64,000 bases of DNA. Source: Rhizophagus irregularis (lineage: Eukaryota; Glomeromycota; Glomeromycetes; Glomerales; Glomeraceae). Below are positions 466-51,100 of the stretch, one piece after another. Where the stretch lies: assembly GCF_026210795.1 (NCBI RefSeq), contig NC_089445.1:992001-1056000 (forward strand), read 5' to 3'. The notes beneath the pieces were generated by a model. It did no database searches. It had not been told where the DNA came from and worked only from the letters and a program-made list of their open reading frames with translations. The translations under genes were made by a program, and so were the position numbers. Every line of letters begins with the position of its first letter. Within the stretch, counting starts at the first letter, position 1.

Positions 466-1780
466 ATGGATGAATTTGTTCCGAGAAAATCAAAATATTG
501 TCCGGACTGTTATAAACATAGTAGGATCTCTTTTGGATGGTGTAAAGATTGTGAAACTGATTTTATGAAGGGAAGATTTCCTTATTGGTCATCAGGAAAT
601 AGAGATGTTGATGAATTAATCCGTCATACTCAATTAAATTCCTCACAAACTTGTGATTATTTGGAATGGATTCCATTTGAGGTATTTGATATGGTTAAAT
701 ATATTGGGAGTGGTGGATTTAGTAGCATTTATTCAGCCCTTTGGATGGAAGGACCCAGATTGAATTGGGATGATGGATTGCAAGAATGGACTCGAACTGG
801 TCCAATAAAAGTTGCTTTGAAACGACTTGATAATTCAATAAATATTACAAGTTCTTACGTTGAACAGGTAACTATAATTAAATTAAACGGGTTTTAATTT
901 TTTCCTGAAAACAAGCACAATAATAATATCCATATGTTCTTTTTTTAAAATTTTCTCATCTAAATTGTAGATTAAAGCACATCATAAATGTATTCAGTCA
1001 GCTTCATTTGCCGAAATGTTTGGGATTACGATGGATCCAACTTCTAATTATATGTTAGTCATGAAGTATTACAGAAGTGGCAACCTGTACCAATATCTAG
1101 ACCGTTCCAATGGAATCCTTTCTTGGCGTGATATTATAGACATGTTATGGGGTATTGCTGGAGGTCTTGAAAGAATTCATACTGAAGGTAAAGTTCTTAA
1201 AAATCTTCACGGAGGAAATTTGCTTATTGGAGATGAAGAAATTTCTATAGATACCGGAGATGTTTATATAGACACTTATATTAGTGATGTGGGTCTTTAT
1301 GGACCAAGATATAATCCTAGAAGTTCCGATCAAATTTATGGAGTTTTGCCATACGTTGCACCGGAAGTTTTACGCGGTGAAAATTATAGTACCGCTTCTG
1401 ACATTTATTCATTCGGTATTATAATGTATACACTTGCGACTGGAGAAAGACCTTGGTATAATGAAGCACACGATATTAATTTAGCGAAAAATATCTGTGA
1501 CGGTAAGAGACTTGAAATTCCTGAGGATACACCGAAATTTTATGTAGAATTAATACGAAAATGTTGGGACAATGAACCAGAAAAACGTCCTACTGCAACT
1601 TATTTATATAAAAAATTAAATTGGATTAATTTAATTCTGGATCCTTTTGATGATGATTATTATATTTCTGAAGAAAAAAGGCGTAAAATAATTTCCCAAT
1701 TGCCTAAATCATATACTCATCCGGAAATACACCCAGAAGCATATTATACAAGTAGACTTCTATATTTTCCAGAATTATAA
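466..1780 (+). CDS. Kinase-like protein (probable pseudokinase), copy 1
   Basis: Two exons, 466-867 and 971-1780, are joined across a 103-nt GT-AG intron (phase 0) and give about 403 aa. An N-terminal Cys4 motif (C12, C15, C26, C29) may bind zinc. It is followed by a linker ending LEWIPFEVFD, the Gly-rich loop GSGGFSS, and VALK with the ATP-contacting Lys kept. Helix C reads VEQ|IK where the wider family has a Glu before the hydrophobic-Lys pair. The catalytic loop reads LKNLHGGN instead of HRDxxxxN, and the metal-binding motif is DVG instead of DFG. APE, SDIYSFG and the C-lobe RP are intact, and the tail ends YYTSRLLYFPEL. A TKL-type fold follows from the family. Lack of phosphotransfer is inferred from the lost Asp. 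The partner and pathway are unknown. It is the most divergent copy of the cluster. Confidence 0.88.
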
Positions 1781-4700
1781 TTATTAATCAAACAAATTTA
1801 TAAACAATTAGTATTCTAATGTAGTTTATTATTGAATTTTTTCCGTACATTTTCTCTCTCGTTTTATTTGTTTATTCATTTCAATTTTTTTTTTTACTGT
1901 AATAAAATGAACAATTTATTTTTCAACATTTATTTTCCTTCTTTTTTTATATGATAAATTGAATTATAAATGTTTGAGCCGAATATTAATATGATTTATT
2001 AAAGATAATGTATATAGAATGTTACTTAATATAATTCAGTTGGAAAAAATATCATGATACCTAGTTTAAAAATTATAAAACGCCCAATATGTCGATTTTT
2101 CAAGAAATTAAAAAGGACTACAATTACATACTTGCTTTATTGGCGAACTTGGGTACTCTTAAAAAATGGTGCTATTTTAAGAAGTGCGGTACGAATAAAA
2201 CTAGCACGTATTTAGCGAAACTAGTACAAAAAACGTCTTGAATAAAAAAAATTAAATCTTTAAAATTACGGACTTTTACCTATGATAGTAATCTGCTGTA
2301 CTCGTTACGCCCGTCCTTTATTAGCCAGAACTCGTTAGTCTTTCATTGTTCGTTTTTAGGGCGTATTTTATAACACTTTAAGGTAAATACCAAAAACAGT
2401 GTTCATTGTTTTCATAAATCTATATATGAGTTCATTTAAAACTGAATGAATATCATTAATTTATTAGGTATATAATTTCTTTTTCTGGTTAAAGGAATAA
2501 ACATTAGTAAGCAAAAAAGGTTAACAAGCATTTCTTGAAAATGCGGAAGTCATTTAAACATGTGATCGCGGTCATATGCTCCCGACATTTGTTTTTTTTT
2601 TACCAACAAAATTTATAAGTAGAAACACATGATCAACATACTCCTTCCAATAGGCTAAAGCATAACATTCAGGTTATTGGCTGAAACAGATTACAAAAAT
2701 TATAAGGACGGCAATTTATAACTAAACAATAATTTTATTATTTATTCGAAAATTTTCATGCAATTTAAAATTATTTAAATTTATTAATGAGGTCGGAAAG
2801 AGAAAGTATTTATATTAATGAATTTTAACATGTGTTACCACCAGTTTTCGTCGGGCGTCAGGTGATAACAGATAATAAAATAATGATTCACAATCAAATT
2901 AGTGTTAATTTATGTAGATCAAGTCAATTTACCGGAGCAAAATCCAAATTGATGAGCAATTTATTAAAAGTGCGTTGATATCTCAATAAAATTCTTACTA
3001 CTGCCTCACTCGGCGCTCTATAGTAACCAAAATTATATCAAACACACAAAAATAAATTCCCGATCAAGAAGAACTTCCACTAAAACAACCTTTCTTGAGA
3101 GAAAACCTTGTTTTAGGGTCTAAAGGTCTTGATTCTAAACTAAAAAAAAAACTAAAAACTAAAAAAAAAACTTTAAAAAAACTATCCTTCCTCCCACATC
3201 CATTTGGGGAGATATTTATAATGAAAAATTCAAAGAACAACTTGTCTATGGCCAAAATTGACTTTAGACAACTTACACACTTCGTCCAAGTAACAATTTG
3301 TCAAAGGTCACTTTGTGATAAGTTGACCAACGCCAATTTGTTTACATAATCATGATTGTCCCTGGCTAACGCTCTAAAATAGCTCTAAACTAATATATCT
3401 AATAAAAAAATAATAAAATATACTAATACAATAAAAAAATAAAACAATATAAAAAAAAACGATAATATAAATTCTATAATAAAAATATACTAAAATAAAA
3501 TAAAAAAAACCATATAAAATTATGATGATCATTCACTGATCACTAATAATATATTAGTGCGCAATCATCCAATAATCAAAGTTTCGCAACACATGCAATT
3601 GGTCGAATCATAATGAGAGATTTAAATGAAGTTTCAATTATGATTCATTGCAAAGTTTAGCCTCTCTCTCCCTTAGGCAAATGTCTCGTCCTTTCAAATC
3701 AAGCTCTCTCCCTAAGAGAGAGTTATCATCCTGATGTAGTAAAAATCATTTAATGAATAAATAAAAATATTTCTCACCAAATCGTCATTTTTTTTCTTTT
3801 TTCAGGCTCTTTGTAAATTGTCTTTAAAATTTCGGGATTCTTCAATAACACATTGGCATTTTTAGAATCTTCCTATTATTAATAAACACGTTAGCATTGA
3901 GTTAATTCAATATGGTCAGTGAGTGAAGTGAAATTTATTAGCCAAGGAAGATTCTTCCTCCAGAACCAGTATATACCTTAGTCCATTAAAAACCTCACTA
4001 AGGCGAAGTCAGCGAGGGAGAAAAAAAAACAGGATGTAAGGATATTTGAGAAATAACCCATACCCTTCACATTTATGAAAGGTTTCTGCTCGGCTGCTAA
4101 AGGATTCGAATGATAATAATTATGTATTTGTGAGATCGATATTTAGCATGTAATTTTACTTTAAATTGTTTAGACATTAAGTTTAGACATTTCCTATAAT
4201 ATCTTATAATTTTTAGCTCATTAAATTCGTCTCATTAAGGTGATAATGGCGGTAAATTTATAATGTTCTGATTGATATTGACCAAGTTATAGTAATTTAA
4301 TTCTTTTGTATTTCGTTATACAAATTGTAAAATTTGTGCAATAATTGGGTTCATATAATCCTGAAATGACAAAGTATTAAAATATAGAAATTTTGTTTTA
4401 TTAGTACAAAATTAACATGTGATAATCTGCATAATTTTGGCTGTCCGAATAATTTTGGCCGCCCTCTGTAATAAATCATCTTTTTCGTAGCATATCATAC
4501 GAATTTATGTGCGATACCGCGATACCAATGATGACAAAATGTTGTGCAGTTAAACACTGCTACACAATCTTCATTACAGTATGTCTTTATTGTCATCTAT
4601 TTATAATTTTCTCTCGTTAACTCAACTTCAGACAAAGTTTATTTATTTTTAACATATTTCTCAAAATTTTTATTTTATCATTTCAATTTTCTTTATTGCG

Positions 4701-7700: not shown

Positions 7701-7754
7701 AGGTTTTTTTTCTTATATACAAATTTTTTTATGAATACAGATTCATATCTCAAT
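1781..7754. other. Long intergenic region between kinase copies 1 and 2
   Basis: I see no convincing gene in about 5.9 kb. It begins with a kinase 3' flank. At about 2310-2365 lies a module (cctttattagccagaactcg and following bases) that recurs downstream of other copies. A short ATTC microsatellite sits near 5811-5826. The stretch 7150-7470 resembles the upstream flank of copy 4 (22660-22800 and 23850-23960). Short ORFs near 3100 and 7000 are low-complexity and look accidental. The last 130 bases before copy 2 are almost pure T runs. Confidence 0.5.
2310..2365 (+). repeat. Recurrent 3'-flank module of kinase units
   Basis: A phrase close to cctttattagccagaactcg, then gttagtctttcat and tttttagggcg, lies about 530 bp after kinase copy 1. 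Diverged versions occur near 16835-16890, 21985-22045, 27062-27110 and 54588-54630, and on the minus strand near 33660-33720, mostly 250-530 bp after a kinase copy or remnant. It marks the duplicated unit. No function is proposed. Confidence 0.55.
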
Positions 7755-9197
7755 ATGAATAACTATCAAGGACATAAGTTTATTCCGAAAGAGTTAAAAG
7801 ACTGTCCCGAATGCGGGAAACCTAGGATCTCTTTCAGATGGTGCAAGGATTGTGAAACTAATTCCATGAAGGAAAGCTTTCTTTATTGGACATCTGAGAA
7901 TAAAGAGATTGATGAATTAATTCGCCATACTCAACTTAATGCCTCTCAAACTTGTGATTATTTGGAATGGATCCCGTTCGAGAAATTTGAAATGCTCAAA
8001 TATATTGGCAGTGGTGGATTTAGTAGTGTCTATTCTGCACTTTGGTTGGAAGGACCTAGATGGAATTGGGATGATGATGCGCAAGAATGGACTCGAGCTG
8101 GACCCACTTATGTTGCTTTAAGACGTCTGGACAACTCGTTAAATATCTCAAGCTCTTACATTTATCAGGTATTATTTATGTTTAACAATTCAAAAAGAAT
8201 CATACCAGCCGTAACGATGAATGCTAATAAAAAACAATAATAATAATATACCCTTGTTTAGCGTCTCGTCATTTGGTAAAAAAGAAAATTTTCACAAAAA
8301 AATTAACATTTATAATAATTTTATCTGTTTCTATAAAAAATATACAATTTAATTTTATTTTCTCCACTTTAGATTAAAACATATCACAATTGTTTACAAT
8401 CTGCATCGTTAGCCGAAACATTTGGAATTACAAAAGACCCAACTTCCAATTATATGATCGTTATGAAATATTATGGAAGCGGCAATTTATACCAATACCT
8501 TGATCGTCACAATAGAATTCTTTCTTGGAAAGATATAATAGATATGTTACGGGGCATCGCTGAAGGTCTTGAAAAGATTCATGTTGAAGGAAAAATTCAT
8601 AGAAATCTTCATGGAGGAAATTTACTTATTGAGAATGAAAAAAATATTACTGATGCTCGTATTGGTGACGTAGGTCTTTATGGACCATGTGAATATAATA
8701 ATTCAGGACAGATATATGGAGTTTTACCATATATTGCGCCGGAAATTTTACGTGGTGGAAATTACAATACCGCTTCTGACATATATTCATTTGGTATTAT
8801 TATGAATATTCTTGCAACTGGGAAAAGACCTTGGCATAGTGAAGCACATGATATTAGTTTAGCAAAAAATATTTGTGACGGCAAGAGACTTGAAATTCCG
8901 GATGATACACCAAAATTTTATGCAGAGTTAATGCAACAATGTTGGGATAATGAACCAAAAAAACGACCAACTGCATCTAATTTATATAAAAAATTGAGTT
9001 GGATTAATTTAATGAATGGTGCAAATCCGTTTCATGATGATTACTACATTTCTGAAGTAAAAAGATGTAAAATAATTTCTCAATTGCCTAAAACATACAC
9101 ACATCCGAAAATACATCAAGAAGCATATTATATAAGTAGACTTTTGTATTTTCCTAAATTATCAAATATGAACATTAAAAAGATTATTTATAGATAA
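7755..9197 (+). CDS. Kinase-like protein (probable pseudokinase), copy 2
   Basis: Exons 7755-8168 and 8373-9197 with a 204-nt intron give about 412 aa. I chose the ATG at 7755 because it aligns with the start of copies 4, 6 and 7. An in-frame ATG at 7731 would add eight residues. The Cys4 motif CPEC-x9-CKDC, linker, GSGGFSS loop, IHRNLHGGN (Asn for the catalytic Asp), DVG and IAPE are all present. The VAIK Lys is Arg here (VALRRL), so the usual ATP-anchoring residue is lost as well. Helix C has Gln at the Glu position (IYQ|IK). The first exon, intron and start of exon 2 are almost identical to the broken copy at 19754, while the rest differs, which suggests gene conversion. A catalytically dead kinase fold is likely. 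Confidence 0.87.
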
Positions 9198-11164: not shown

Positions 11165-11196
11165 TATTATGAGGCGCCATGCTGTTCAAAAGTCTG

Positions 11197-15190: not shown

Positions 15191-15849
15191 TTGATAATAT
15201 AAAAAATTATACATCTTATCAACTTTTTATTCGCAAATTTTTGTTTATACTGAAAACTAGCAACTTAATTTGTTATAGTATTTGTATACAATAAATCTTA
15301 GCCACAGCTACATTACTCTTAATATCATCATCATCAAAAACTTACACTTTATCAACATGAATACTTGATTTTTATAGTATATTAATTCCAGCTTTTTTTT
15401 TTTTTTGAAACGTTGAAAGAACCAGTTTCAAAAAGCGACTTAATTTGTGAATTTAATAGAGATCATTTAAATGATGATAGGAAACAAAAAAAAAAGACAC
15501 ATTTTTCCTGCCAAAGAAATGAATCCTTTTTAGGTTTTATCATATTGTAAATTGATCAATCCTCCTTTATTTGTATTTGATAGGCTATCAAAGAAAACAA
15601 ACAATGAAACGAATATCAGTGTAACTCCCTATTGTAAGGAAAAAAAAAAATTCTAAAAGCGAAAAGAAAAGTGAATTGAAATAACGTTTCAACAATTTAT
15701 TTTTTAATTCAGTACAATATTGTTAGTATATCGTTCGTTTATATCATTCATGATAGAAAAGCTTTTGAATTAAACAAAGCGAAAAATGAAAATAAATAAA
15801 TAAGAAAAAATATTAGAACGGATTCGAATTAAGATGAAATCATTCAAGA
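15191..15849. other. AT-rich spacer with kinase 5'-flank fragment
   Basis: No gene is seen. The stretch 15690-15840 (acaaagcgaaaaatgaaaat, cggattcgaattaagatgaa) matches the upstream flank of the broken copy at 55610 (54900-55000). Here it is joined directly to mid-exon-2 sequence, showing a deletion of everything between. Confidence 0.5.
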
Positions 15850-16579
15850 TAATAATAATTCAGGTCAGATATATGGAGTTTTACCATATATTGCGCTGGA
15901 AGTCATACGTGGCAAAAATTCCTGTTTCTGACATTTATTCGAAAAAGACCTTGGTATGATAGAGCGCATGATCATTATTCAGCAAAAAGCATTTGTGATG
16001 TGCCGTGCGAGAAAAGCTGCCACCTTTTCCACAAGTGACATTAAGTTAAATTAAATAAAAATAAGAACGTTATTAAATAAAATACGTTGCTTGGTTTATT
16101 ATTACATAAAAATATACGAATTTTGGGTTAAAATAATTACATTGTGATTAACGTAAGAACTCCTTTAAAAGTTACTCCTTATATAACTAATTTAAGGGTA
16201 CTTATTTTAGGGTTATTAACTTATAATCCTTTAATGTTATGTTCTACATCATGTGATCATTAATCACTTCAATACTGCGCCACATATTACGAGGTGGGTT
16301 AATATTGTCACTTAATTTACTACTTTTATATTATGATAAAATTATGGCAAAATTTTATGCAGAATTAATGCAACAATGCTGGGACAATCAGGAAACTGAC
16401 AAACTGCATCTTATCTATATAAAAAATTAAATTGGATTAATTTAAATTTAATTCGAAATAATTTGATGATTATTACATTTCTGAAGAAAAAAGATTTCTC
16501 ATTGGCTAAAACATATACTCATCCGAAAATTCATCACGATATTATACAAGTAGACTTTTGTATTTTCCTGAATTATTAA
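15850..16579 (+). pseudogene. Kinase exon 2 pseudogene split by an insertion
   Basis: The homology starts at NSGQIYGVLPYIA (15850) and runs through the IRG-like and SDIYS regions with a deletion before RPWYDRAHDHYSAKSICD. It stops at 16000. It resumes at 16348 with KFYAELMQQCWDN and runs with several frameshifts to the tail motif TSRLLYFPELL near 16578. The gap is filled by the repeat at 16001-16347. Exon 1 and the N-lobe are missing. Confidence 0.8.
16001..16347 (+). mobile_element. Dispersed repeat inserted in a kinase pseudogene
   Basis: It starts tgccgtgcgagaaaagctgc, then caccttttccac. Up to about 16308 it matches the reverse complement of 33906-34365, with shared landmarks gcttggtttattattacata, gttactccttatataactaa and cacatattacgaggtgggtt. 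The insertion replaces about 30 bp of kinase sequence. No inverted ends or target duplication are evident, so the class is unknown. Confidence 0.65.
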
Positions 16580-18035: not shown

Positions 18036-18325
18036 ATATTTGTGACGGTAAGAGACTTGAAATTCTGATGGATACACAAAATTTTATGCAGAATTAATGA
18101 CAATGATGTTGGGACAATGAATCAGAAAAACCTTCTTACTTGAATGAAAAATTGGGGGAATGGATTACTTTAATATGTGATGATACAAATCCTTTAGAGA
18201 TTTCAGATGAAAGTTCTGTTGCTGAAGAGAAAAGATGGAAAATGATTTCACAATTACCTAAAAAATACATCCATCCAGAAAAACATCCTGATGCTTATTA
18301 TATACATATATACAAGTAAACTTCT
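18036..18325 (+). pseudogene. Kinase exon 2 C-terminal remnant, tail type B
   Basis: Reads ICDGKRLEI, then after small indels the tail YLNEKLGEWITL...ISDESSVAEEKRWKMISQLPKKY, ending in a frameshifted YYTS motif. This tail type is otherwise found intact only in copy 7 (48840-49083) and, decayed, at 26500-26650. The upstream kinase body is absent. Confidence 0.7.
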
Positions 18326-19753: not shown

Positions 19754-21165
19754 ATGGAATTTACAGATATAATGATGGAAGAGGACGGCTATCAAGGACA
19801 TAAATTTATTCCGAAAGAGTTAAAGGACTGTCCCGAATGCGGAAAACCTAGAATCTCTTTCGGATGGTGCAAGGATTGTGAAACTAATTCCATGAAGGAA
19901 AACTTTCTTTATTGGACATCTGAGAATAAAGAGATTGATGAATTAATTCGCCATACTCAACTTAATGCCTCTCAAACTTGTGATTATTTGGAATGGATCC
20001 CGTTCGAGAAATTTGAAATGCTCAAATATATTGGCAGTGGTGGATTTAGTAGTGTCTATTCTGCACTTTGGTTGGAAGGACCTAGATGGAATTGGGATGA
20101 TGATGCGCAAGAATGGACTCGAGCTGGACCCACTTATGTTGCTTTAAGACGTCTGGACAACTCGTTAAATATCTCAAGCTCTTACATTGATCAGGTATTA
20201 TTTATGTTTAACAATTCAAAAAGAATCATACCAGCCGTAACGATGAATGCTAATAAAAAACAACAATAATAATATACCCTTGTTTAGCGTCTCGTCATTT
20301 GGTAAAAAAGAAAATTTTCACAAAAAAATTAACATTTATAATAATTTTATCTGTTTCTATAAAAAATATACAATTTAATTTTATTTTCTCCACTTTAGAT
20401 TAAAACATATCACAATTGTTTACAATCTGCATCGTTAGCCGAAATATTTGGAATTACAAAAGACCCAACTTCCATTTATATGATCGTTATGAAATATTAT
20501 GAAAATGGCAACTTATATCAATATCTTGATCGTTCAAATGGAATCCTTTCTTGGAGAGATATGATTGATATGTTGTGGGGAATAGTTAGAGGTCTTGAAA
20601 GAATTCATGCTGAAGGTAAAGTTCATAAGAATCTACACGGAGGAAATTTACTTATTGAGGATGAAAAAATCTCAACAGACGCTCGTATTATCATGAAAAT
20701 AATAATAATTCAGGTCAGATATATGGAGTTTTACCATATATTGCGCCGGAAGTCTTACGTGGTGAAAATTATACACCTGCTTCTGACATTTATTCTTTGG
20801 GCATTATTATGAATACTCTTGCAACTGAAAAGAGACCTTGGTATAATAGAGAACACGATTATAGTTTGGCAAAAGATATATGTAATGGGTTAAGACCTGC
20901 AATTCCAGATGATATTCCAGAATTTTATGCAGATTTAATGCAACAATGTTGGAGCAATGAACCAGAGAATCGTCCAACTGCGTCTCTTATATATAAAAGA
21001 TTAAGTTGGAACAATTTATTTTGTGATTATGATTATTATGATGAAAAAAAAAGATATAGAATACATCCTCATCCGAAAATACATCCAGAAGCATATTATA
21101 CAAGTAGGCTTTTGTATTTTCCCGAATTATCAAATATGATCATTAATCAAATAGGTTTATCATAA
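19754..21165 (+). pseudogene. Kinase-like copy 3, frameshifted by a 31-bp deletion
   Basis: Exon 1 (19754-20194), the 204-nt intron and the start of exon 2 (from 20399) are intact and nearly identical to copy 2, including VALRRL. Exon 2 reads in frame to VHKNLHGGNLLIEDEKISTDARI. There about 31 bp are missing relative to copy 4, removing the DVG motif and shifting the frame. The deleted stretch is bounded by TATTA on both sides in copy 4, suggesting a microhomology deletion. The rest (NSGQIYGVLPYIAPEVLRG to the stop at 21165, tail type C with YDYYDEKKR) continues open in another frame. Alternative starts at 19772 and 19775 match other copies better. Confidence 0.85.
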
Positions 21166-21183
21166 ATACTGTAATTATTTATT

Positions 21184-21590
21184 TGTACCGCTTCCGACAT
21201 ATTTTCATTTGGTATTATCATGAATACTCTTGCTTGCAACTGGGCAAAGATCTTGGTATAATGAAGCACATGATATTAATTTAGCAAAAAACATTTGTGA
21301 TGGCAAGAGACTTGAAATTCCGGAGGATACACCAAAATTTTATGCAGTTTTAATGCAACAATGTTGGAGAAATGAACCAGAAAACCGCCCAACTGTATCT
21401 CTTATATACAAAAGACTAAGTTAGAACAATTTATTTTGTGATTATGATTATCATGATAAAAAAAAAAAGATATAAAATACATACTTATCCGAAAATACAT
21501 CCAGAAGCATATTATACAAGTAGTCTTTTGTATTTTTCCGAATTATCAAACATGATCATTAATCAAATAGGTTTATCATTAATACTGTAA
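21184..21590 (+). pseudogene. Tandem partial copy of kinase exon 2 3' half
   Basis: Begins at TASDIFSFGIIMNTL, carries a 4-bp CTTG duplication that shifts the frame, then reads through YNEAHDINLAKNICDGKRLEI to a premature stop after YKRLS. A decayed type C tail follows, with the same AYYTS-like end. It lies immediately after the copy 3 pseudogene and repeats its last third. Confidence 0.8.
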
Positions 21591-24569: not shown

Positions 24570-25881
24570 ATGGAAGAGCAAGGACATAGTAAGTTTATTC
24601 CGAAAGAGTTGAAGGACTGTCCAGAGTGCGGGAAACCTAGAATCTCTTTTGGTTGGTGCAAGGATTGTGAAACTAATTCCATGAAGCAAAACTTTCTTTA
24701 TTGGACATCTGAGAATAAAGAAATTGATGAATTAATCCGCCATACTCAACTTAATGCCTCTCAAACTTGCGATTATTTGGAGTGGATCCCGTTTGAGAAA
24801 TTTGAAATGGTAAAATACATTGGTAGTGGTGGATTTGGTAGTGTCTATTCAGCACTTTGGATGGAAGGACCAAGATGGAATTGGGATGATGGTGCGCAAG
24901 AGTGGGCTCGAGCTGGTCCTATGACTGTTGCTTTGAAACGTCTTGATAATTCACAGAAAATTTCGAGTTCTTTCATTAATCAGGTAATAATAATAATATT
25001 AATATTAATCACTGTTTCGGTAAAATTATTTTCCGATACTTGGAATAATGACAATATTCATTTATTTATAGATTAAAACGTATCACAAATGCTTACAATC
25101 GGCTCCATTGGCTGAAACATTTGGAATTACAAAGGATCCAACATCTAACTACATGATAGTTATGAAGTATTACGAAAATGGTAACTTATATCAATATCTA
25201 GACCGTTCTAATGGAATCCTTTCTTGGCGGGATATGATAGATATATTACAGGGAGTTGCTAGAGGTCTTGAAAGAATCCATATTGAAGGAAAAATTCATA
25301 GAAATCTTCACGGAGGAAATGTACTCATTGAGGATGAAGAAATCTCAACAGACGCTTGTATTAGCGATGTGGGTCTTTATGGACCATGTTATTATCATGA
25401 AAATAAGAATTCAGGTCAGGTATATGGAGTTTTGCCATATATTGCGCCGGAGGTCTTACGTGGTGAAAATTATTCTCCTGCTTCTGACATATATTCATTT
25501 GGTATTATTATGAATATTCTTGCAAATGGAAAGAGACCTTGGTATGATAGAGCGCATGATCATTATTTAGCAAAAAGCATTTGCGATGGTGAAAGACTTG
25601 AAATTCCAGACGATACACCAAAAATTTATGCAGAATTAATGCAACAATGCTGGGATAATGAACCAGGAAACCGTCCAACTGCATCTTACCTATACAAAAA
25701 ATTAAATTGGATTAATTTAATTCGAGATAATCCGAATCCATTTGATGATAATTATTACATTTCTGAAGAAAAAAGATTTAAAATGGCTTCTCAATTGCTT
25801 AAAATATACACTCACCCGGAAATACATCCCGAAGCACATTTTACAAGTAGACCTTTGTATTTTCCCGAGTTTCAAACATAA
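24570..25881 (+). CDS. Kinase-like protein (probable pseudokinase), copy 4
   Basis: Exons 24570-24983 and 25072-25881, with an 88-nt intron, give about 407 aa. The Cys4 motif is at C17, C20, C30 and C33. The Gly loop is GSGGFGS (85-91) and VALK has K123. Helix C ends FINQ138|IK, with Gln where an active family member has Glu. The catalytic loop is H214-R215-N216-LHGG-N221, so the proton-acceptor Asp is Asn while the metal-binding Asn is kept. D237-V238-G239 replaces DFG, and APE is at 263-265. The tail is type A (LNWINLIRDN...YYISEEKR). It keeps the residues for nucleotide and metal contact but lacks the catalytic base. It could act as a nucleotide-binding scaffold or decoy (inference). The upstream motif ataatacag lies 16-25 bp before the ATG. 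Confidence 0.9.
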
Positions 25882-26103: not shown

Positions 26104-26690
26104 AATGGAATTCGAGTAATTTGAAATTGTCAAATACATTGTAATGGTGGATTTAGTAGTGTTCATTCTGCACTTTGGATGGAGGGGCCAAGGTGGAATT
26201 GGGATGATGGTGCGCAAGAGTGGGCTCGAACTGGTCCTATGATTGTTGCTTTGAAACGTCTTGATAATTCACAGAAAATTTCGAGTTCTTTTTTTTAATC
26301 AGGTAATAATATTAATATTAATAATCACTGTTTCGGTAAAATTATTTTCCGATCTTTAGTAACGTTGTACCTTATCTGTGCATCCATCTGTTGTATCTAT
26401 GATAAAGTTGTACTAATAATTTTTGCATAATGGTGATAATCATTTATTTATAGATTAAAACGTATCACAAAACAATGTTGGGAGAAAAACGTCCGACTGC
26501 ATCTTATTTAAATGAAAAATTGGGTGAATGGATCACTTTAATTTGCGACGATCCAAGCTTCTCAAATTTCAGATGAAAGTTCTGTTGTTGAAGAGAAAAG
26601 ATGGAAATGATATCACAATTGCCGAAAATTCATCCTGAAGCATATTATACAAGTAGACTTTTATATTAAATTATCAAATATAATTATTAA
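26104..26690 (+). pseudogene. Kinase-like pseudogene with internal deletion, tail type B
   Basis: Starts mid-linker and reads KYIVMVDLV/ GGFSSVHSALWMEGPRWN-like sequence through VALKRLDNSQKIS to a stop (F run then TAA). The intron follows (26301 to 26454). Exon 2 keeps only IKTYHK before jumping to QCWEKRPTASYLNEKLGEW, so nearly the whole C-lobe is deleted. The tail has small indels. It lies 220 bp downstream of copy 4. Confidence 0.8.
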
Positions 26691-28205: not shown

Positions 28206-28350
28206 CGATATTAGTAATTTAGCAAAAAAAATATTTGTGATGGTAATAGACTTGAAATTCCGAAGGATACACAAAATTTTATGCAGACGGAATGGTAATA
28301 CGACAATATTGGGACAATGAATCGGAAAAACGTCCGAAAAAATACATTAA
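28206..28350 (+). pseudogene. Kinase exon 2 remnant
   Basis: Reads AHDISNLAKKI, then CDGNRLEIPKDT and a shifted KFYAD...QYWDNESEKRP before ending. It is the counterpart of the remnant at 18036 in the duplicated unit and carries several frameshifts. Confidence 0.6.
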
Positions 28351-29293: not shown

Positions 29294-30684
29294 ATGGAAT
29301 TTATAGATATAATGGAAGAGTACAATTATCAAGGTATCCCAAGGGAATTAAAAGATTGTCCGGAATGCGGAAAGCCCAGAATTTCATTTGGATGGTGTAA
29401 GGATTGTGAAACTAATTCCATGAAGGAAAACTTTCTTTATTGGACATCTGAAAATAAAAAGATTGATGAATTAATTCATCATACTCAACTAAATGCTTCT
29501 CAAACTTGTGATTATTTGGAATGGATCCCGTTCGAGAAATTTGAAATGGTCAAATATATTGACAATGGTGGATTTAGTAGTGTCTATTCTGCACTTTGGT
29601 TGGAAGGGCCTAGATGGAATTGGGATGATGATGCGCAAGAATGGACTCGAGCTGGACCCACTTATGTTGGTTTAAAACGTCTGAACAATTCATTAAACAT
29701 CTCAAGCTCTTATATTGATCAGGTATTATTTATTTTCTTGTTTAACAATTCAAAAAGAATCATACCGACCATAACAATGAATGCTAATAATAAAAAATAT
29801 ATATAACTATACGATGATCATTGCCTTGTTGGTAAAAAGAACTGTAATTTTTTTTTCTATAAAAAGTATACAATTTAATTTTATTTTCTTCACTTCAGGT
29901 TAAAACACATCACAAGTGCTTACAATCAGACTTGTTAGCTGAAACATTTGGAATTACGAAAGATCCAACGTCTAATTATATGATCGTTATGAAGTACTAC
30001 GAAAGCGGCAACTTATACCAATACCTTGATCGCCATAATGGGATTCTTTCTTGGAAAGATATAATAGGTATATTACAGGGATTCGCTAGAGGTCTTGAAA
30101 GAATTCATATTGAAGGAGAAATTCATAAAAATCTTCACGGAGGAAATTTACTTATTGAGGATGATAAAATCTCAACTGACGCACGTATTGGAGATGTGGG
30201 CCTTTATGGACCAAGCTATATTATTAAAAATGAAAATCCCAATAAAATTTATGGGGTTTTGCCATACGTTGCACCGGAAGTTTTACGTGGTAAAAATTAC
30301 AGTACCGCTTCCGACATATTTTCATTTGGTATTAACATGAATACTCTTGCAACTGGGCAAAGGCCTTGGTATAATAGAGCACACGACTATAATTTGGCAA
30401 AAGATGTATGTAACGGTTTAAGACCTGCAATCTCAGATGATACACCAAAATTTTATGCAGATTTAATGGAACAATGTTGGGATGATGAACCAGATAAACG
30501 ACCAACTGCATCTCATATATGTAAAACATTAAGTCGAAACAATTTGCTTTGTGATTATGATTATTATGATGAAAAGAAAAGATGTAAAATAGTACATTCT
30601 CATCATTTGAAAATACATCCACAAGCATATTATACAAGTAGGCTTTTGTATTTTCCTGAATTATCAAACATGACCATTAATTAA
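29294..30684 (+). CDS. Kinase-like protein (probable pseudokinase), copy 5
   Basis: Exons 29294-29722 and 29899-30684, with a 176-nt intron, give about 404 aa. An internal ATG at 29312 (MEEYNYQG) aligns better with other copies and may be the real start. The Cys4 motif is intact. The Gly loop is altered (IDNGGFSS: the first Gly is replaced), VALK is VGLK with Lys kept, and helix C is IDQ|VK. The catalytic loop is IHKNLHGGN and DFG is DVG. APE is present, and SDIFSFGINM is intact. The tail is type C (LSRNNLLCDYDYYDEKKR). It is the most degraded nucleotide site among the open copies, but it has no stop or frameshift. Exon 2 starts with Val, giving acceptor cttcag|gtt. Confidence 0.85.
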
Positions 30685-32000
30685 AAAGGTTAATATATGC
30701 TGTTATTATTATTTCTAACAAATTGATTTTATTTATAAAGGATTTTTCCGGAAAACGCTAAATTATTGTAGGAAGATTATCATTTACTATGTCTTAAAGT
30801 CTATTTTTCCATGTTGAATTAAATATGACAGAATATTAATTAATAAAGAATTTTGTTAACCAAACTAGCTTGATTTTAGCAAATATATATATAGTGTGTG
30901 TATATATATAACTAAATATCATTTGCTTCTCAATTTTACGAGAGTTTAGGAGTTATGCACGTGATAGCGTTAAACTTAACTCCGGTTAGTGCGTACGTTA
31001 ATATCGTACACATGATGCACAGCATCCCCTCTCCCATAGAATTCAAAGACCATGACGGCAATGAAATGTCACGTGATTTTTCGTGACATTTTTTCAGGTT
31101 ACGCCCAAATGACTCAAACTGGTCACATGTCATTTGGGTCAAATGACAAATGACCTAGTCATATAAAGATATAGTGTATGTCAATCATTTTTTCAGAAAG
31201 CAGTGGAATTTTCCCAGTCACTGTTTCTCATTTATGTATAACAGATAAGAATAATTTTCTTTGTATCATCCATGAGTCAGTGACCAGGTGAAATTAGGAT
31301 TAGGGGACTATTAAAACTTTTTTGAATTTAAATAGAAACTAAATAAACAAATAAGTTTCTCATAATAATCAAAATCTTATTTAATCCTAGATCCTAGATT
31401 CATCTTTTAATACGCTCTAATAATTTTATCAAAATAAAATTTCCAATCATTTCTTATTATCAGTATATAAATTAATTAATGTTTATCAGTTCGTCTCGTC
31501 CAAGCATATTGTATGTCTATTTAGCAGTTAAGACTTTAATTTTTGACTATCATATTGATACATTTACAAATTTAAGAATGACGTAAATATTTTGAAGATA
31601 AACGGTTAATTTTAGTGTTTAATAGTTGTACAATTACGTCAATAGTACAAAGAACCCCATTAGCGATTTTATATTGTAAAATCTAAGATTGATAAGCATT
31701 TATTAAGGATTGTGAAACATGGATAGGAAATAATTTTACTAGAAAAATAGATTATCAATTTGTGATAAGAGAAGAACAAATAACGAATACTGATTATCAG
31801 ATTGAATTAACTCATTTTTGTGAAAATAAAATATATGACTCATTTTGAGTCAGAAAATAATAAATATAAAATAGATAGGAAATAGAAATGTTAGAATTGG
31901 AAAATTATAAGGAATAGACCAGAATAATATTTGCGAAAAAAGGGATATAAAAAAGATAGATATTGAAAATTATTAATTTAATTTTTTAAGAAAAATTGAA
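30685..32000. other. Intergenic region, possible fragments only
   Basis: The first 250 bases are kinase 3' flank. At 30950-31000 the words cacgtgatagcgttaa and actccgg resemble 40880-40920. Paired ACATGTCATTTGGGTCAAATGACAAATG-type inverted words lie near 31120-31155. At 31700-31847 one frame reads DCETWIGNNFTRKIDYQFV onward to a stop, which may be a coding remnant but is not recognised. Confidence 0.4.
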
Positions 32001-32399
32001 ATGAGTACTGCAAGAGAAATTGTTCGAGAAATACATGCATATTTACAGAATATTAAAGCAGAAAAAAAGAATCATGAGAATTTACAAAAAGAAATTGAGA
32101 GAGATAGAAAAAATTTAGAAAAAGCTCGAGAAGCAGTAGAAGAATTACCAAAGAAAGTTGATAGAGAAATTAAAAGGAATAAAGAAAGAGAAAAAAGAAT
32201 TGAAGGATTAGAAAGAAATATTTGTCATTTTTTAGGGAGTCTCGAAAGTATAAAGGAGGAAGAATTGAAGAAATCTTTGAGCCCGAATCCATTGATCAAC
32301 TTAGAAACTTGTGCAGAAATGTTGAAGAAGTTATTAGAAAACCCAGATATAAAGAAAATAAAAAGAGAAGGAATTGATTTAAATAAAATAATATTATAG
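32001..32399 (+). CDS. Small Lys/Glu-rich coiled-coil protein, unknown
   Basis: A 132-codon intronless ORF starts MSTAREIVREIHAYLQNIKA. Residues 15-75 are rich in Lys, Glu and Arg with heptad-like Leu/Ile spacing, suggesting a long helical coiled coil. The C-terminal part (ETCAEMLKKLLENPDIKKIK) could form a short helical bundle. No Cys motif, signal peptide or membrane segment is seen. Purine-rich composition could make such an ORF by chance, but the length and clear ATG in this AT-rich context favour a real or recently real gene. I do not recognise the family. Confidence 0.5.
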   Translation: MSTAREIVREIHAYLQNIKAEKKNHENLQKEIERDRKNLEKAREAVEELPKKVDREIKRNKEREKRIEGLERNICHFLGSLESIKEEELKKSLSPNPLINLETCAEMLKKLLENPDIKKIKREGIDLNKIIL

Positions 32400-34595: not shown

Positions 34596-35919
34596 TCATT
34601 TTGATAATTCAGGAAAATACAAAAGCCTACTTGTATAATATGCTTCGGGATGTATTTCCGGATGAGTGTATATTGTAGGCAATTGAGAAGCTATTTTAAA
34701 TCTTTTTTCTTCAGAAATATAATAATTATCATCGAATGGATTTGGATTATCTCGAATTAAATTGATCCAATTTAGTTTTTTATATAAATAAGATGCAGTC
34801 GGACGGTTTTCTGGTTCATCATCCCAACATTGTTCCATTAAATCTGCATAAAATTTTGGTGTATCATCTGGGATTGCAGGTCTTAAACCGTTACATATAT
34901 CATTTGCCAAATTATAGTCGTGTGCTCTATTATACCAAGGTCTTTGCCCAGTTGCAAGAGTATTCATGATAATACCAAATGAAAATATGTCGGAAGCTGT
35001 ACTGTAATTCTTACCACGTAAAACTTCCGGTGCAACGTATGGCAAAACCCCATAAATTTTATTTGGATTTTCATTTTTAATAATATAGCTTGGTCCATAA
35101 AGGCCCACATCTCCAATACGTGCGTCAGTTGAAATTTCTTCATCCTCAATAAGTAAATTTCCTCCGTGAAGATTTCTATGAATTTTTCCTTCTATATGAA
35201 TTCTTTCAAGACCTCTAGCAACTCCCTGTAATATATCTATCATATCACGCCAAGAAAGAATTCCATTAGAACGGTCTAGATATTGATATAAATTACCATT
35301 TTCGTAATACTTCATAACTATCATATAATTAGATGTTGGATCCTTTGTAATTCCAAATGTCTCAGCCAACGATGCCGATTGCAAGCATTTGTGATACGTT
35401 TTAATCTAAATAAATGATCATTTCATTATGCAAATCGTTCCAAATATCGGAAAATAATTTTACCGAAACAATGATTAATATTAATATTAATATTATTACC
35501 TGATTAATGAAAGAACTCGAAATTTTCTGTGAATTTTCAAGACGTTTCAAAGCAACAGTCATAGGGCCAGCTCGAGCCCACTCTTGCGCACCATCATCCC
35601 AATTCCATCTTGGTCCTTCCATCCAAAGTGCTGAATAGACACTACCAAATCCACCACTACCAATGTATTTTACCATTTCAAATTTCTCGAACGGGATCCA
35701 CTCCAAATAATCGCAAGTTTGTGAGGCATTAAGTTGAGTATGACGAATTAATTCATCAATTTCTTTATTCTCAGATGTCCAATAAAGAAAGTTTTCCTTC
35801 ATGGAATTAGTTTCACAATCCTTGCACCATCCGAAAGAGATTCTAGGTTTCCCGCATTCGGGACAGTCCTTTAACTCTTTTGGAATAAACTTATGTCCTT
35901 GATAACTGTCCTCTTCCAT
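34596..35919 (-). CDS. Kinase-like protein (probable pseudokinase), copy 6
   Basis: Exon 1 is 35919-35500 and exon 2 is 35405-34596, with a 94-nt intron; the product is about 409 aa. An in-frame ATG at 35991 would add 24 residues. Copy 7 has the same open extension, so it may be used. The Cys4 motif, GSGGFGS loop, VALK, helix C INQ|IK, IHRNLHGGN and GDVGLYGP are present. The activation-segment type (SYIIKNENPNKIYG) matches copies 5 and 7. The tail after ENRPTAS is type A as in copy 4, so the gene is a mosaic. It is the left member of the inverted duplication, running opposite to copy 7. Catalytic inactivity is inferred from HRD to HRN and the missing helix-C Glu. Confidence 0.88.
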
Positions 35920-45766: not shown

Positions 45767-46138
45767 AGTCAAACTCCAATATAACGTTATGTTGAGATCC
45801 ATATGAAAATCTTTGAAAAATAACGTTATATCAGAATTATACCGATATTTATATGTTCTCTCGTATTTATGTAGTAGTAAGAAAGTAAAATTTTCGTTAT
45901 ATCGAGTTTTTAACGTATGGTTCACCGAATTTTTATATAGTGAATAACTTGCTATAATGAAGAAAAGTTCATGCACAGATTTTTTATGTATAATAAAATG
46001 ACCCTCAGGCGGGCCTCAGTATAGTGAATTTCTTACTATAATGAATTTTAATCTCCAGCCCATGGGATTCATTTAAATATAGTGAGGGTGAATTGTATAT
46101 CGGTATATCGAATCTCGGTATATCGAGGTCTAACTGTA
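45767..46138. mobile_element. Pogo-like MITE (CGATATAACG ends)
   Basis: Left end agtcaaactccaatataacg and right end (reverse complement) tacagttagacctcgatata are imperfect inverted repeats resembling pogo/Tigger ends. The inside is full of TATATCG / CGATATA words. A partial version is seen at about 37990-38060 in the left arm. The 61.2-kb duplicate lacks the right two thirds. Confidence 0.5.
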
Positions 46139-47630
46139 GGTATAAAAAGAGATCAATATTTATATTAACGAATTTCCTTTTCTTAAGATTCAAATAATCA
46201 ATGCTTTTTTTTATAAAAAATAATAAAATTGTCACCTAGAAAATTTTTCGTAACGAAATTAATCAAGAATTCTCCAACCTTTTTAAGGTAATAATTTATT
46301 GAACGTAATGATAGTATTGTAGTAAGACATTAGATCACGCGCTCGTTTTAGTGAACTCCCAAATGTAAAATTGGTATTTTAGTTTTAGCTAGTAGTTAAA
46401 TTGTTAAACCCTATGTTTAAAGTTAAAATTAACTTTTGTGTACAAATTCCAAAATTGCTTCCATTATAGAATAAATGACAAGTCTCTTGTTATTACGAAA
46501 AAGAGTTTACTTATTGTAGATCTTGTTTTAATTATATTCCTATCAGTTAAATCGGCATCACTAAGCATAACAATTATCAACGTTCATGATTTATACTTGG
46601 TGACCAATTCTAAATTCATAAATAAGATGATACAATCTTCCTAATATACAGTATTTCAAAAACTTCCTATTAATTGAATAAACCACGGTTACGCTAGATT
46701 TTATTTGATCATGTAGAACACACATAAAAAAATATAGAAGTTTTAATCTTGATATTTCCATTCAATTTCAAAAATATTTTTTTTTTTTATCGTTCCATAA
46801 TCATATCATAATCATATCTATCTAATTACATTAACGTTTCAATAATTATTTTTTGACTCAATGCAATATTGTTATATTTGTATTGTTCATATTAAACAAA
46901 TTGAAAAAAAGAAATAAAAAAAAAACAATAAAAACTGATTTGAAATTAACATTTAATAATTTCCCAATGCGCAAATGCGGTAAATATACCAAATAAAGAG
47001 TTATGAAATGTGGGGAGGGATTTGTTGCACGGACTATTATCAAGTTGAAACCTTTTAAGTTCTCCTTGATAAACCTTATCCATTATCAATATTATCAAAA
47101 AGAATTTTTAAATTTAATTTATTTATTTTTTTTTAAAAAAAAATTGAATGAAAAGTATATTACGAAAATCATTGGTAAACAATGATTATTTATTCCCCTG
47201 ATCATCTATTTTAAAATTACCGGGAGATTACCCGACTCCTTAAAAATAGCCATTTCTGGTTAGTACTTTATAATATGTATAAATAAACCCCTTTTGAAAA
47301 GATCCTAATTACAAGATCTTTCTTTCAGTTTTAAAGTATAAAAAGTCTTTAAATTTCCTTGATAAATTTTTTAAGGAATATTCTTAAAATTATAGATAAG
47401 TTATAATTCCTTTTTCGGGTTAAAGAAAATATTTATTTGTAAGTTAAGGTTTAAAAATTATTACTAATTTAATTAATTTATAAAAAGTAGATTTCTTTAA
47501 TAAATTTTTTTTTTTTTTTTTTGAAAGTCAAATAAGTGACGATCCAATTAATAAAGAATTTTAAAAAGAAAATAAATACTACGGTTTGTGAAGGTCTTTA
47601 TTGTCAGCGGTATGAGTTTGTAATAGACAG

Positions 47631-47648
47631 AACCATGAATTCATGGTT
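47631..47648. promoter_or_regulatory. 18-bp perfect palindrome upstream of copy 7
   Basis: aaccatgaattcatggtt is identical to 35986-36003, and its spacing to the start codon is the same within a few bases. A regulatory role is a guess based on symmetry and conservation. Confidence 0.35.
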
Positions 47649-47714
47649 AGAAATAATTCGAACCATATTTTTATAATGCAGGTCATATTAAATAATGCAG
47701 GGTCATATCTCAAG

Positions 47715-49083
47715 ATGGAAGAGGACAATTATCAAGGACATAAGTTTATTCCAAAAGAGTTAAAGGACTGTCCCGAATGCGGGAAACCTAGAATCTCTTT
47801 CGGATGGTGCAAGGATTGTGAAACTAATTCCATGAAGGAAAACTTTCTTTATTGGACATCTGAGAATAAAGAGATTGATGAATTAATTCGTCATACTCAA
47901 CTTAATGCCTCTCAAACTTGCGATTATTTGGAGTGGATCCCGTTCGAGAAATTTGAAATGGTAAAATACATTGGTAGTGGTGGATTTGGTAGTGTCTATT
48001 CAGCACTTTGGATGGAAGGACCAAGATGGAATTGGGATGATGGTGCACAAGAGTGGGCTCGAGCTGGTCCTATGACTGTTGCTTTGAAACGTCTTGATAA
48101 TTCACAGGAAATTTTGAGTTCTTTCATCAACCAGGTAATAATAATTAATAATAATATTAGTTTCGGTAAAATTATTTTCCGATATTTGGAACGATTTGCA
48201 TAATGAAATGATCATTTATTTATAGATTAAAACGTATCACAAATGCTTGCAATCGGCATCGTTGGCTGAGACATTTGGAATTACAAAGGATCCAACATCT
48301 AATTATATGATAGTTATGAAGTATTACGAAAATGGTAATTTATATCAATATCTAGACCGTTCTAATGGAATTCTTTCTTGGCGTGATATGATAGATATAT
48401 TACAGGGAGTTGCTAGAGGTCTTGAAAGAATTCATATTGAAGGAAAAATTCATAGAAATCTTCATGGAGGAAATTTACTTATTGAGGATGAAGTAATTTC
48501 AACTGACGCACGTATTGGAGATGTGGGCCTTTATGGACCAAGCTATATTATTAAAAATGAAAATCCAAATAAAATTTATGGGATTTTGCCATACGTTGCA
48601 CCAGAAGTTTTACGTGGTAAAAATTACAGTACCACTTCCGACATATTTTCATTTGGTATTATCATGAATATTCTTGCAACCGGAAAAAGACCTTGGTATA
48701 ATAGAGCACACGACTATAATTTGGCAAATGATATATGTAACGGTTTAAGACCTGCAATCCCAGATGATACACCAAAATTTTATGCAGATTTAATGGAACA
48801 ATGTTGGGATGATGAACCAGAAAACCGTCCGACAGCATCATATTTAAATGAAAAATTAGGTGAATGGATTACTTTAATTTGCGACGATCCGAGTCCTTCT
48901 CAAATTTCAGATGAAAGTTCTGTTGCTGAAGAGAAAAGGTGGAAGATGATTTCACAATTGTCTAAAAAATATAGTCATCCAGAGAAGCATCCCGATGCAT
49001 ACTATACAAGTAGGCCGAAATGCCATTCCAATTACAATGGTAGGGTTTCTCTTTATGACGAGTTTCGCATGATCAGAAGTTAA
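47715..49083 (+). CDS. Kinase-like protein (probable pseudokinase), copy 7
   Basis: Exons 47715-48134 and 48226-49083, with a 91-nt intron, give about 425 aa. The ATG at 47643 would extend it by 24 residues. The body is nearly the same as copy 6: Cys4, GSGGFGS, VALK, INQ|IK, IHRNLHGGN, GDVGLYGPSYIIKNENPNK and VAPE. From NRPTAS on, it carries tail type B (LNEKLGEWITLICDD, ISDESSVAEEKRWK). The end is unique: the usual TSRLLYFPEL is replaced by TSRPKCHSNYNGRVSLYDEF and a few more residues, so the C-terminus probably runs into new sequence. It is the only intact holder of tail B here. Like the others it lacks the catalytic Asp. Confidence 0.88.
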
Positions 49084-49851
49084 AAATTGGGAATTGCCCT
49101 TAATGAAGAATTTTGGTTTCTTACGTTGCTTTGGCTATACAGTACATTAGACTATGTAAGTTGCGCTATTTTTTTCCCAGTCTTTCGATCGTATATCACT
49201 ATCAAAAGCAAAAACTCAGAATTTATACTGAAAATTCGGATAGAAATTTATGAATATTTTTAAGCATTTTAACGGTTTATAAATTATGCTAATTTTTATT
49301 ATGTACCAAATTACGATTATATGATTATCTTTTTCAATTTATTATTTTTATTTTATCTTATTTGATTATGACAATAGATATCAATATTATTTAAATTATG
49401 ACACTTTTGATTTTGACTTATTACTAATTTTGTCTGCATTTTTTATTTTTTATTTTTTTTAAAAAAAATAGTTGATGTTAACTACTATATACTGTAATTT
49501 ACTGTATTATAATTTTGACGTATCCTTAAACAGAAATTCCAATGGTGCCAAAAAGTTGGAACGGACATTTTTCTAAATGTGTCCAACATTTTCCGAACCT
49601 CTTTTTTTTTTATAAAACAAGTTTGGAAAAATCGATGGTCCGAATTTCCTGAAAAAATAAAACCCCGTAATGGTGTGGTTATCCGAAAAATAATTAGCCG
49701 CAACGTGATCCGGCTCAGGCGTAGATCGTCGTTGTGAATTCCAGGTCATACGCAAAGATTATTATTGATCGGCAGTAATTCCGGCCAAATTATAATTTTG
49801 GCCAGAATTATAAACGCTATGTCGATCATATCCTTTTTTGGCGATAGGCGT
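49084..49851. other. Spacer up to the inversion breakpoint
   Basis: No gene is supported. A near-perfect inverted pair ggccaaattataattttggc lies at about 49793-49812. Overlapping minus-strand ORFs at 49485-49755 are mutually exclusive and unrecognised. Confidence 0.45.
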
Positions 49852-50142
49852 AAGTCTTACGTGGTGAAAATTATACTTCTGCTTCTGACATTTATTCGTT
49901 TGGAATTATTATGAATATTCTCGCAACTGGAAAGAGACCTTGGTATGATAGAGCGCATGATAATTATTTAGCAAAAAGCATTTGCGATGGTGAAAGACTT
50001 GAAATTCCAGATGATACACCAAAATTTTATGCAGAATTAATGCAACAATGCTGGGACAATGAATCAGGAAACCGTCCAACTGCAGCTTATCTATGCAAAA
50101 AATTAAATTGGATTAATTTAATTCGAGATAATCCGAATCCAC
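49852..50142 (+). pseudogene. Inverted C-terminal half of kinase-like copy 8
   Basis: Reads VLRGENYTSASDIYSFGIIMN through PWYDRAHDNYLAKSICDG to LNWINLIRDNPNP, where homology stops. It is type 1/tail A and open throughout. It is exactly the piece missing from the minus-strand pseudogene at 51100-50251, but in the opposite orientation, as expected from an inversion within the gene. Confidence 0.8.
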
Positions 50143-50250
50143 GGTGATACTGGGGAAGATCCGCTTTAACGGGCCCATTTTAGGAATTTATTGTTACACA
50201 AGTTCTAAAAAGGAAATTTTTTTTTTGCAAAAAACAAAATTTGTGGACCA

Positions 50251-51100
50251 GCGCAATATATGGCAAAACTCCATATACCTGGCCTGAATTCTTATTTTCA
50301 TGATAATAACATGGTCCATAAAGACCCACATCGCTAATACGAGCGTCTGTTAAGATTTCATCATCTTCAATGAATAAATTTCCTCCGTGAAGATTTCTAT
50401 GAATTTTTCCTTCAATATGGATTCTTTCAAGACCTCTAGCGATTCCCTGTAATATATCTATTATATCCTTCCAAGAAAGAATCCCATTATGACGATCAAG
50501 GTATTGGTACTTCATAACGATCATATAATTAGATGTTGGATCCTTTGTAATTCCAAATGTTTCAGCCAATAAAGCCGATTGTAAGCATTTGTGATACGTT
50601 TTAATCTATAAATAAATGATTAATGTCAATATGCAAATCGATGCATGGATTCCAAGTATCGGAAAATATTATTATTATTACCTGATTAATGTAAGAACTC
50701 GAAATTTTCTGTGAATTATCAAGACGTTTCAAAGCAACAGTCATAGGACCAGCTTGAGCCCACTCTTGCGCACCATCATCCCAATTCCATCTTGGTCCTT
50801 CCATCCAAAGTGCTGAATAGATACTACAAAATCCACCATTACCAATGTATTTGACCATTTCAAATTTCTCGAACGGGATCCACTCCAAATAATCGCAAGT
50901 TTGAAAGGCATTAAGTTGTGTATGACGGATTAATTCATCAATCTCTTTATTTTCAGATGTCCAATAAAAAAAGTTTTCCTTCATGGAATTAGTTTCACAA
51001 TCCTTGCACCATCCGAAATAGGTTCTGGGTTCTCGCATTCGGGACAATCCTTTAACTCTTTTGGGATAAACTTACGTCCTTGATAACTGTCCTCTTCCAT
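50251..51100 (-). pseudogene. Kinase-like copy 8, N-terminal half, broken
   Basis: Exon 1 is 51100-50682 (419 nt, one less than copy 6). The missing base lies right after the first Cys pair (CPEC), shifting the frame before CKDC. Exon 2 starts at 50605 after a 76-nt intron and runs to VLPYIA at 50251. There the sequence changes abruptly, and the rest of the gene lies inverted at 49852-50142. Seven codons (YENGNLY region) are deleted in frame between MKY and QYLD. It still shows INQ|IK, IHRNLHGGN and SDVGLYGP, so the substitutions predate its decay. Confidence 0.85.

Follow-up and report, generated by a model that had tools for sequence, protein, structure and literature searches.

Pseudokinase expansions are an already known kind of gene family in fungi, and Kwon et al. 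(2019, Sci Signal eaav3810) reportedly tied such expansions to plant-fungal interactions. In JAK2, the pseudokinase domain JH2 lies in tandem with an active kinase domain. HER3, as described in excerpts of PMC13259870, combines a VCIK motif, a His at the αC position, an HRNxxxxN catalytic loop and DFG with an accessible ATP site and acts as an allosteric activator. For Rhizophagus irregularis, excerpts of PMC10234402 put the expanded set of kinases in one assembly at 2,533 members. We analyzed 64,000 nucleotides of the genome of this fungus (C17:992001-1056000, here called the window), which hold eight kinase-like copies with a catalytic loop (W1 to W8; loci elsewhere in the genome are numbered from L001 onward). 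These copies belong to a clade of pseudokinases that lacks both the catalytic Asp of the HRD motif and the Glu of helix αC, and whose open-frame copies are under purifying selection. The family numbers about 70 loci, fragments counted; all family counts come from this one genome (146.7 Mb, 32 contigs). Among the papers listed by literature searches on the fungus and on HRN pseudokinases, no title or abstract opening described this clade, which is no proof that a description is absent.

The clade and its two lost residues

A six-frame motif scan of the window, admitting D, N, H, G or S at the catalytic position, returned 24 loop-like matches, eight of which were judged by context to be kinase loops. 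All eight carry N and none D, the later Asn (GGN) is kept in all, and DVG is found in the seven in which that site survives, as a preliminary description of this DNA had reported. Its use of DVG as a sign of lost function did not hold, and we rejected DVG as a lesion: position 2 of DxG in 26 relatives outside the clade is L in 17, M in 3, F in 3, V in 2 and I in 1, so that most relatives carry DLG and 2/26 DVG. A shifted alignment, the doubt raised in that description, was rejected as well, because H-x-N-L-H-G-G-N aligns column for column with the H-x-D-[FL]-H-x-G-N of the relatives. The closest sequence match in the PDB is the Lck entry 3mpm, whose own loop is HRN and which scores 2.3 bits over an HRD Lck entry.

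Comparison of the W6 exon 2 protein with the genome gave at least 144 matches (3,784 candidates, 143 scored), at 70 to 100% identity in clade A, 45 to 58% in clade B and about 38 to 48% in other kinases; clade B is separated from other kinases by the tree and not by identity. Clade A lies on C17, C15 and C18, and clade B mostly on C8. The sampled loci comprise members outside the window (L001 to L052), the 26 relatives (L053 to L078) and 18 loci found by pattern (L079 to L096). Trees were built without the HRD column. Of 104 loci or window copies that match exon 2, 86 entered the first tree and 18 were omitted as short or broken. The 55 rows in which exon 2 has a long open frame, among them L083, which is broken elsewhere, form one branch (Shimodaira-Hasegawa-like approximate likelihood ratio test [SH-aLRT], 97; 86 rows, mixture model). 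A second tree (82 rows, LG+G4, without L069, L080, L081 and L096) recovered the same branch at 100/100 and in 100% of 200 bootstrap trees, still with a warning of long branches meeting among the relatives. Clade A (21 rows) and clade B (34 rows) are one branch each (100/99). The N in the eight window copies is a single inherited event and not eight independent ones. The shared substitution noticed earlier thus stands for the window, but the clade as a whole has N, H or Y at this site, and its extent goes far beyond the cluster; this alternation, the genome-wide extent and the change of the αC Glu to Gln were absent from the preliminary description.

Residue counts cover those loci with a letter at the site, out of 26 in clade A and 34 in clade B. 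At the HRD position, clade A has N in 25, and clade B has H in 21, N in 9 and Y in 4, which makes 34 N, 21 H, 4 Y and no D in 59; nine further loci have N or H there, and W3 has N. The 26 relatives have D in 23 and N in 3. The αC Glu is replaced by Gln in 51/52 loci (21 Q and 1 R in clade A, 30 Q in clade B) and is present in 17/17 relatives with a readable exon 1. Taking a pseudokinase as a kinase domain whose lineage has lost at least one of the β3 Lys, αC Glu, HRD Asp, loop Asn and DFG Asp, the family belongs to this class twice over, with the HRD Asp gone from 59/59 and the αC Glu from 52/52 readable loci. The β3 Lys is kept in 50/52 (20 K and 2 R in clade A, 30 K in clade B), and the loop Asn and DxG Asp are kept in 59/59 each; in the window, W2 and W3 have Arg for the β3 Lys. 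The same holds for the APE Glu (59/60), αF Asp (58/58) and αI Arg (54/54). The first Gly of the Gly-rich loop is present in 23/24 of clade A and is N in 26/30 of clade B. Four N-terminal Cys (CxxC...CxxC) are found in nearly all readable members and most readable relatives. Two lesions mark the clade, while the nucleotide and metal residues remain. Three relatives outside the clade (L055, L068 and L071) show their own HxN change, with the αC Glu kept in the two that have a readable exon 1 (L055 and L068). Asn alone therefore arises repeatedly, and the double change marks the clade.

The αC Gln is encoded by CAG in 21/22 of clade A and by CAA in 24/30 of clade B. Because of these CAA codons, we rejected for the clade as a whole the idea that the Gln merely accompanies an improved splice donor (CAG|GT); for clade A alone the idea may apply. 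In 4/30 of clade B, the splice donor of exon 1 reads GC and not GT, which may reflect real GC donors or small shifts of the assumed exon end.

The fold was predicted for W6 exon 2 alone, from an alignment with 44 other sequences of this genome. The model is a confident kinase C-lobe (mean predicted local distance difference test [pLDDT], 86.8; predicted template modeling score [pTM], 0.89) that matches the solved structures of CTR1, Src, EphA2 and RIPK1 (E of 1e-11 to 4e-11). The same exon scores 122.4 bits with PF07714 (cut-off, 23.1) and 108.5 bits with PF00069 (cut-off, 31.7), and exon 1 alone 12.6 bits, under the cut-off. By profile score and predicted C-lobe, the domain is a member of the protein kinase-like fold.

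Genome-wide, the pattern HxD[LF]HxGN was found 1,735 times and its HxN form 129 times (reversed-pattern controls, 1 and 1), and HxH or HxY loops 45 times against 17 in the control, so that the latter count is partly noise. The context HxX-hydrophobic-HGGN gave 73 loci with N, H or Y (45 N and 28 H or Y by hand count; none in the controls) and five with D. Tallied by hand, the 73 divide into 68 sampled members (8 of these placed by sequence only), the unsampled C15:1252281, and L080, L081, L090 and L091, which are outside the clade or too short to place. W1, with its LKN, escapes the pattern and brings the sampled members to 69, none of which has Asp at the HRD position. The five loci with D (L092 to L096) were considered as hidden Asp members and none was judged to be one: L095 and L096 fall outside the clade in the tree, and L092, L093 and L094, which were not in the tree, were judged by eye to be other kinases, less like the query.

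The same patterns picked up three other groups. L097, L098 and L100 (C1:1386774, C2:24115 and C16:571232), with others, carry HYNFHDGN or HYNFHNGN and SDYL at the DFG site; this group, scattered over many contigs, looks like a second, independent Asp-to-Asn lineage. L080 and L081 (C8:679346 and C8:680449) are adjacent, divergent pseudokinase-like genes on long branches outside the main clade, with HGNLHGGN and DMG in one and HKNLHGGN and DTG in the other. The same 24-base HLYLHHGN match occurs at C5:5095690, C7:4700445, C10:1071167, C11:5212715, C15:38340 and C32:1193813, with a one-base variant on two more contigs, and may belong to a mobile element and not to a kinase.

Selection on the open copies and changes at the catalytic position

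Codon models were fitted to 20 of 26 clade A loci (W3, W8, L014 and L016 to L018 were left out), 22 of 34 clade B loci (L040 was left out beforehand and 11 were skipped as short) and six of seven HxD relatives. The ratio of nonsynonymous to synonymous substitution rates (dN/dS, or ω) was 0.143 in clade A (20 genes, 390 codons), 0.136 in clade B (22 genes, 388 codons) and 0.189 in the relatives (381 codons), and fixing ω at 1 lowered the log-likelihood by 774, 893 and 104, respectively. These values come from stop-free frames only, which biases them downward, and mosaicism blurs the tree, but frame choice and mosaicism are unlikely to turn a ratio of 1 into 0.14. Pairwise counting gave median ratios of 0.20 (clade A) and 0.16 (clade B), the median dS being about 0.8 to 1.0. 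All pairs that could be scored (190/190 and 191/231) had ratios below 1. Exon 2 pairs with dS below 0.3 had ratios of 0.31 to 0.67 in clade A (5 pairs) and 0.18 to 0.33 in clade B (15 pairs). The open-frame copies are under purifying selection and not in decay, in a cluster that meanwhile holds duplicated and mosaic copies. The preliminary description had proposed an old pseudokinase lineage that is still being duplicated, as opposed to random decay with a ratio near 1, and this is borne out by the fully supported clade, by ratios of about 0.14 and by young duplicate pairs that likewise lie below 1. For the six relatives, pairwise counting (median, 0.63) and maximum likelihood (0.189) disagree, and we therefore do not rank the pseudokinases above them in constraint.

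The mosaic structure is visible in sliding windows. W6 and W7 share 94 to 99% identity over most of their length, then 82% and 70% at the 3' end, and identity between W6 and W5 rises from 76% to 96% and falls to 71%. The window copies show signs of gene conversion among themselves.

By parsimony, the HRD position changed 11 times among N, H and Y within the clade on both trees, with D in 0/55 tips; Asn to Asp is one transition. A four-state model with a transition bias of 3.3 fits better by 6.5 log units when D is barred. Simulations with D allowed ended without any D tip in 1 or 10 of 2000 runs from an Asn root and in 7 or 69 of 2000 from a His root, the outcome varying with root state and rate. 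The interchange of Asn, His and Tyr in the absence of Asp is suggestive of inactivity itself being kept by selection, and no more than suggestive because gene conversion could spread the three states without new mutations.

Possible functions and rival explanations

The reading that we favor, with a probability of roughly one half, is a lineage-specific family of pseudokinases that bind nucleotide, do not transfer phosphate and switch a partner. It would have arisen once from the expanded kinases of the fungus, which we take to be of the tyrosine-kinase-like (TKL) type, and at or before the base of the clade the αC Glu would have become Gln and the catalytic Asp would have become Asn, His or Tyr. 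With the β3 Lys, loop Asn, metal-binding DxG Asp, fold-stabilizing APE Glu, αF Asp and αI Arg kept, the domain should still fold and would probably bind Mg-nucleotide, phosphate transfer being presumably lost. Its action would consist in binding and switching a partner, the simplest candidate being an active paralogue, in the manner of HER3 and its kinase partners. ATP binding is predicted from the retained HER3-type residues (K, loop N and DxG D), and catalytic silence is likewise a prediction from sequence. Given that selection has preserved the unbroken copies despite the lost Asp, they are probably regulators rather than enzymes, with an allosteric or scaffolding function; the role as scaffold, sensor or decoy put forward in the preliminary description can still only be inferred. 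More tentatively, the repertoire as a whole may be one in which inactivity is selected, with N, H and Y allowed and Asp barred, coupled to loss of the αC Glu and expanded by birth and death in clusters, possibly as diversified switches or decoys.

Several points weigh against this reading. Only three residues underlie the predicted nucleotide binding, the first Gly of the Gly-rich loop is gone from most of clade B, W2 and W3 have Arg for the β3 Lys, and the proposed partner is hypothetical. Excerpts of PMC9988210 report very low activity for the HRN domains of HER3 and JAK2, and Asn alone is therefore no proof of silence, above all in clade A, where all readable residues are Asn. If N, H and Y were moved by gene conversion, the argument for exclusion of Asp would be weakened.

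The strongest competitor, clearly less probable though a real possibility, is a pure scaffold or decoy: the fold would persist for the sake of a surface that binds proteins, with no role for nucleotide, and K, N and D would serve only to hold that fold together. The conserved fold-holding residues (APE Glu, αF Asp and αI Arg) and the degraded Gly-rich loop of clade B fit it, and a cluster of duplicated, mosaic and broken copies resembles recognition repertoires. Yet K, the loop N and the DxG D are nearly invariant at a median dS of about 0.8 to 1.0, which appears to go beyond structural need, and clade A retains the first Gly.

It is improbable that the family consists of weakly or conditionally active kinases, through slow catalysis by Asn, adenosine-to-inosine (A-to-I) editing of an AAY codon or deamidation to Asp. 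In clade A, Asn is fixed in 25/25 readable loops while the residue beside it varies among R, G and K, and the excerpts of PMC9988210, besides citing weak HRN activity in HER3 and JAK2, raise deamidation while saying that no evidence for it exists. The same excerpts report that PSKH2 showed no activity in either its HRN or its HRD form. The αC Glu is also lost, and clade B has His or Tyr in 25/34, from which neither editing nor deamidation yields Asp; for this reason none of the three can be the function of the whole clade, although residual Asn catalysis, deamidation or editing may occur in clade A alone.

A relic cluster of dead kinases, in which Asn was spread by gene conversion, is very unlikely: breaks are seen in W3, W8 and at least seven other stretches of the window, and the copies are mosaic, but the notion is already contradicted by ω of about 0.14, by the losses of 774 and 893 log units at ω = 1, by the lack of any scored pair at or above 1 and by all 20 pairs with dS below 0.3 lying at 0.18 to 0.67, and stop-free frames hardly lower ω to this extent. 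SelO has a pseudokinase fold that transfers AMP, and a similarly repurposed chemistry here, for which the metal and nucleotide residues kept without a catalytic Asp could speak, is the least credible of all, because both the sequence and the predicted fold point to an ordinary tyrosine-kinase or TKL-like C-lobe.

Pseudokinases as such are well known, and this family adds to them an evolutionary pattern that is unusual and can be tested. That about 70 related loci lack two catalytic residues, its unbroken copies under selection, implies that part of the kinase expansion of this fungus probably does not consist of enzymes, and the natural N/H/Y series at the catalytic position offers a way to test selection against Asp. 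If the more tentative reading of a repertoire selected for inactivity is true, a root symbiont could possess diversified kinase-shaped switches or decoys for signaling or recognition.

The window copies and comparison with known systems

The frame of W1, W2 and W4 to W7 spans two exons, and a GT-AG intron directly follows the αC residue; W3 is broken by a frame change, W8 is truncated and at least seven further stretches are fragments (Table 1). Between the kinase copies, at 31977-32399, lies a reading frame of 140 residues, rich in Lys and Glu and coiled-coil-like.

Table 1. Kinase-like features of the window. For exon 1, starts (ATG) and ends marked "computed" were derived from the Cys position and the intron length.
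Feature	Positions	Strand	Ends	Content
W1 exon 1	466..867	+	computed	four-Cys motif (CPDC..WCKDC), Gly-rich loop, VALK, αC Gln
W1 exon 2	971..1780	+		with stop; LKNLHGGN (LKN at 1196), DVG
W2 exon 1	7731..8168	+	computed	β3 Lys to Arg (VALRRL)
W2 exon 2	8373..9197	+		HRNLHGGN (HRN at 8598), DVG
W3 exon 1	19754..20194	+	computed	VALRRL
W3 exon 2	20399..21132	+		HKNLHGGN (HKN at 20624); frame change at about 20690, where the DxG site is lost
W4 exon 1	24570..24983	+		last codon is the αC Gln (CAG|GT)
W4 exon 2	25072..25881	+		HRNLHGGN (HRN at 25297), DVG
W5 exon 1	29294..29722	+	computed	
W5 exon 2	29899..30684	+		HKNLHGGN (HKN at 30124), DVG
W6 exon 1	35500..35919	-	computed	earlier in-frame ATG at about 35991
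W6 exon 2	34596..35405	-		HRNLHGGN (HRN at 35180), DVG; structure predicted
W7 exon 1	47715..48134	+	computed	earlier in-frame ATG present
W7 exon 2	48226..49083	+		HRNLHGGN (HRN at 48451), DVG; 3' end unlike W6 (mosaic)
W8 exon 1	50679..51035	-		5' part broken
W8 exon 2	50180..50605	-		HRNLHGGN (HRN at 50401), DVG; truncated past activation segment
Fragment	15845..16549	+		decayed exon 2 pieces in several frames
Fragment	18107..18307	+		exon 2, C-terminal
Fragment	21184..21548	+		second exon 2 3' half, behind W3
Fragment	26140..26666	+		behind W4; part of exon 1 (26140-26292) plus exon 2 scraps
Fragment	28227..28283	+		exon 2 scrap, 19 residues
Fragment	49854..50141	+		exon 2, APE to αI
Fragment	55702..55962	+		exon 1, beyond the range of the preliminary description

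Among the genome's own kinases, those with HxD (e.g., L054, L058 and L062) share the intron directly after the αC residue and the four-Cys N terminus with the family, at 41 to 45% identity in exon 2, and differ in keeping the αC Glu and HxD and in having HSGN where the family has HGGN. PSKH2, a primate HRN pseudokinase of the CAMK group, resembles the fungal clade in a single Asp-to-Asn change of the loop. According to the excerpts of its study, however, it keeps the αC Glu and is HRD in other vertebrates, whereas Asp is absent from all 69 sampled fungal paralogues. JH2 of JAK2 is an analogous HRN-type domain, with very low activity in the excerpts of PMC9988210; unlike it, the fungal domain stands alone in the exons seen.

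HER3 is like the fungal family in four respects, as far as the excerpts describe it: the β3 Lys is kept, the αC Glu is lost (His in HER3, Gln in the fungus), the loop reads HRNxxxxN and the Asp of DxG is kept. It differs as a receptor tyrosine pseudokinase, whereas the fungal exons encode a four-Cys N-terminal motif and a kinase domain with no receptor part, and the fungal clade B also uses His and Tyr. The proposed likeness is one in the way of working and makes no claim to membership in ErbB/HER; the relatives of the fungal family in the tree are the genome's own kinases.

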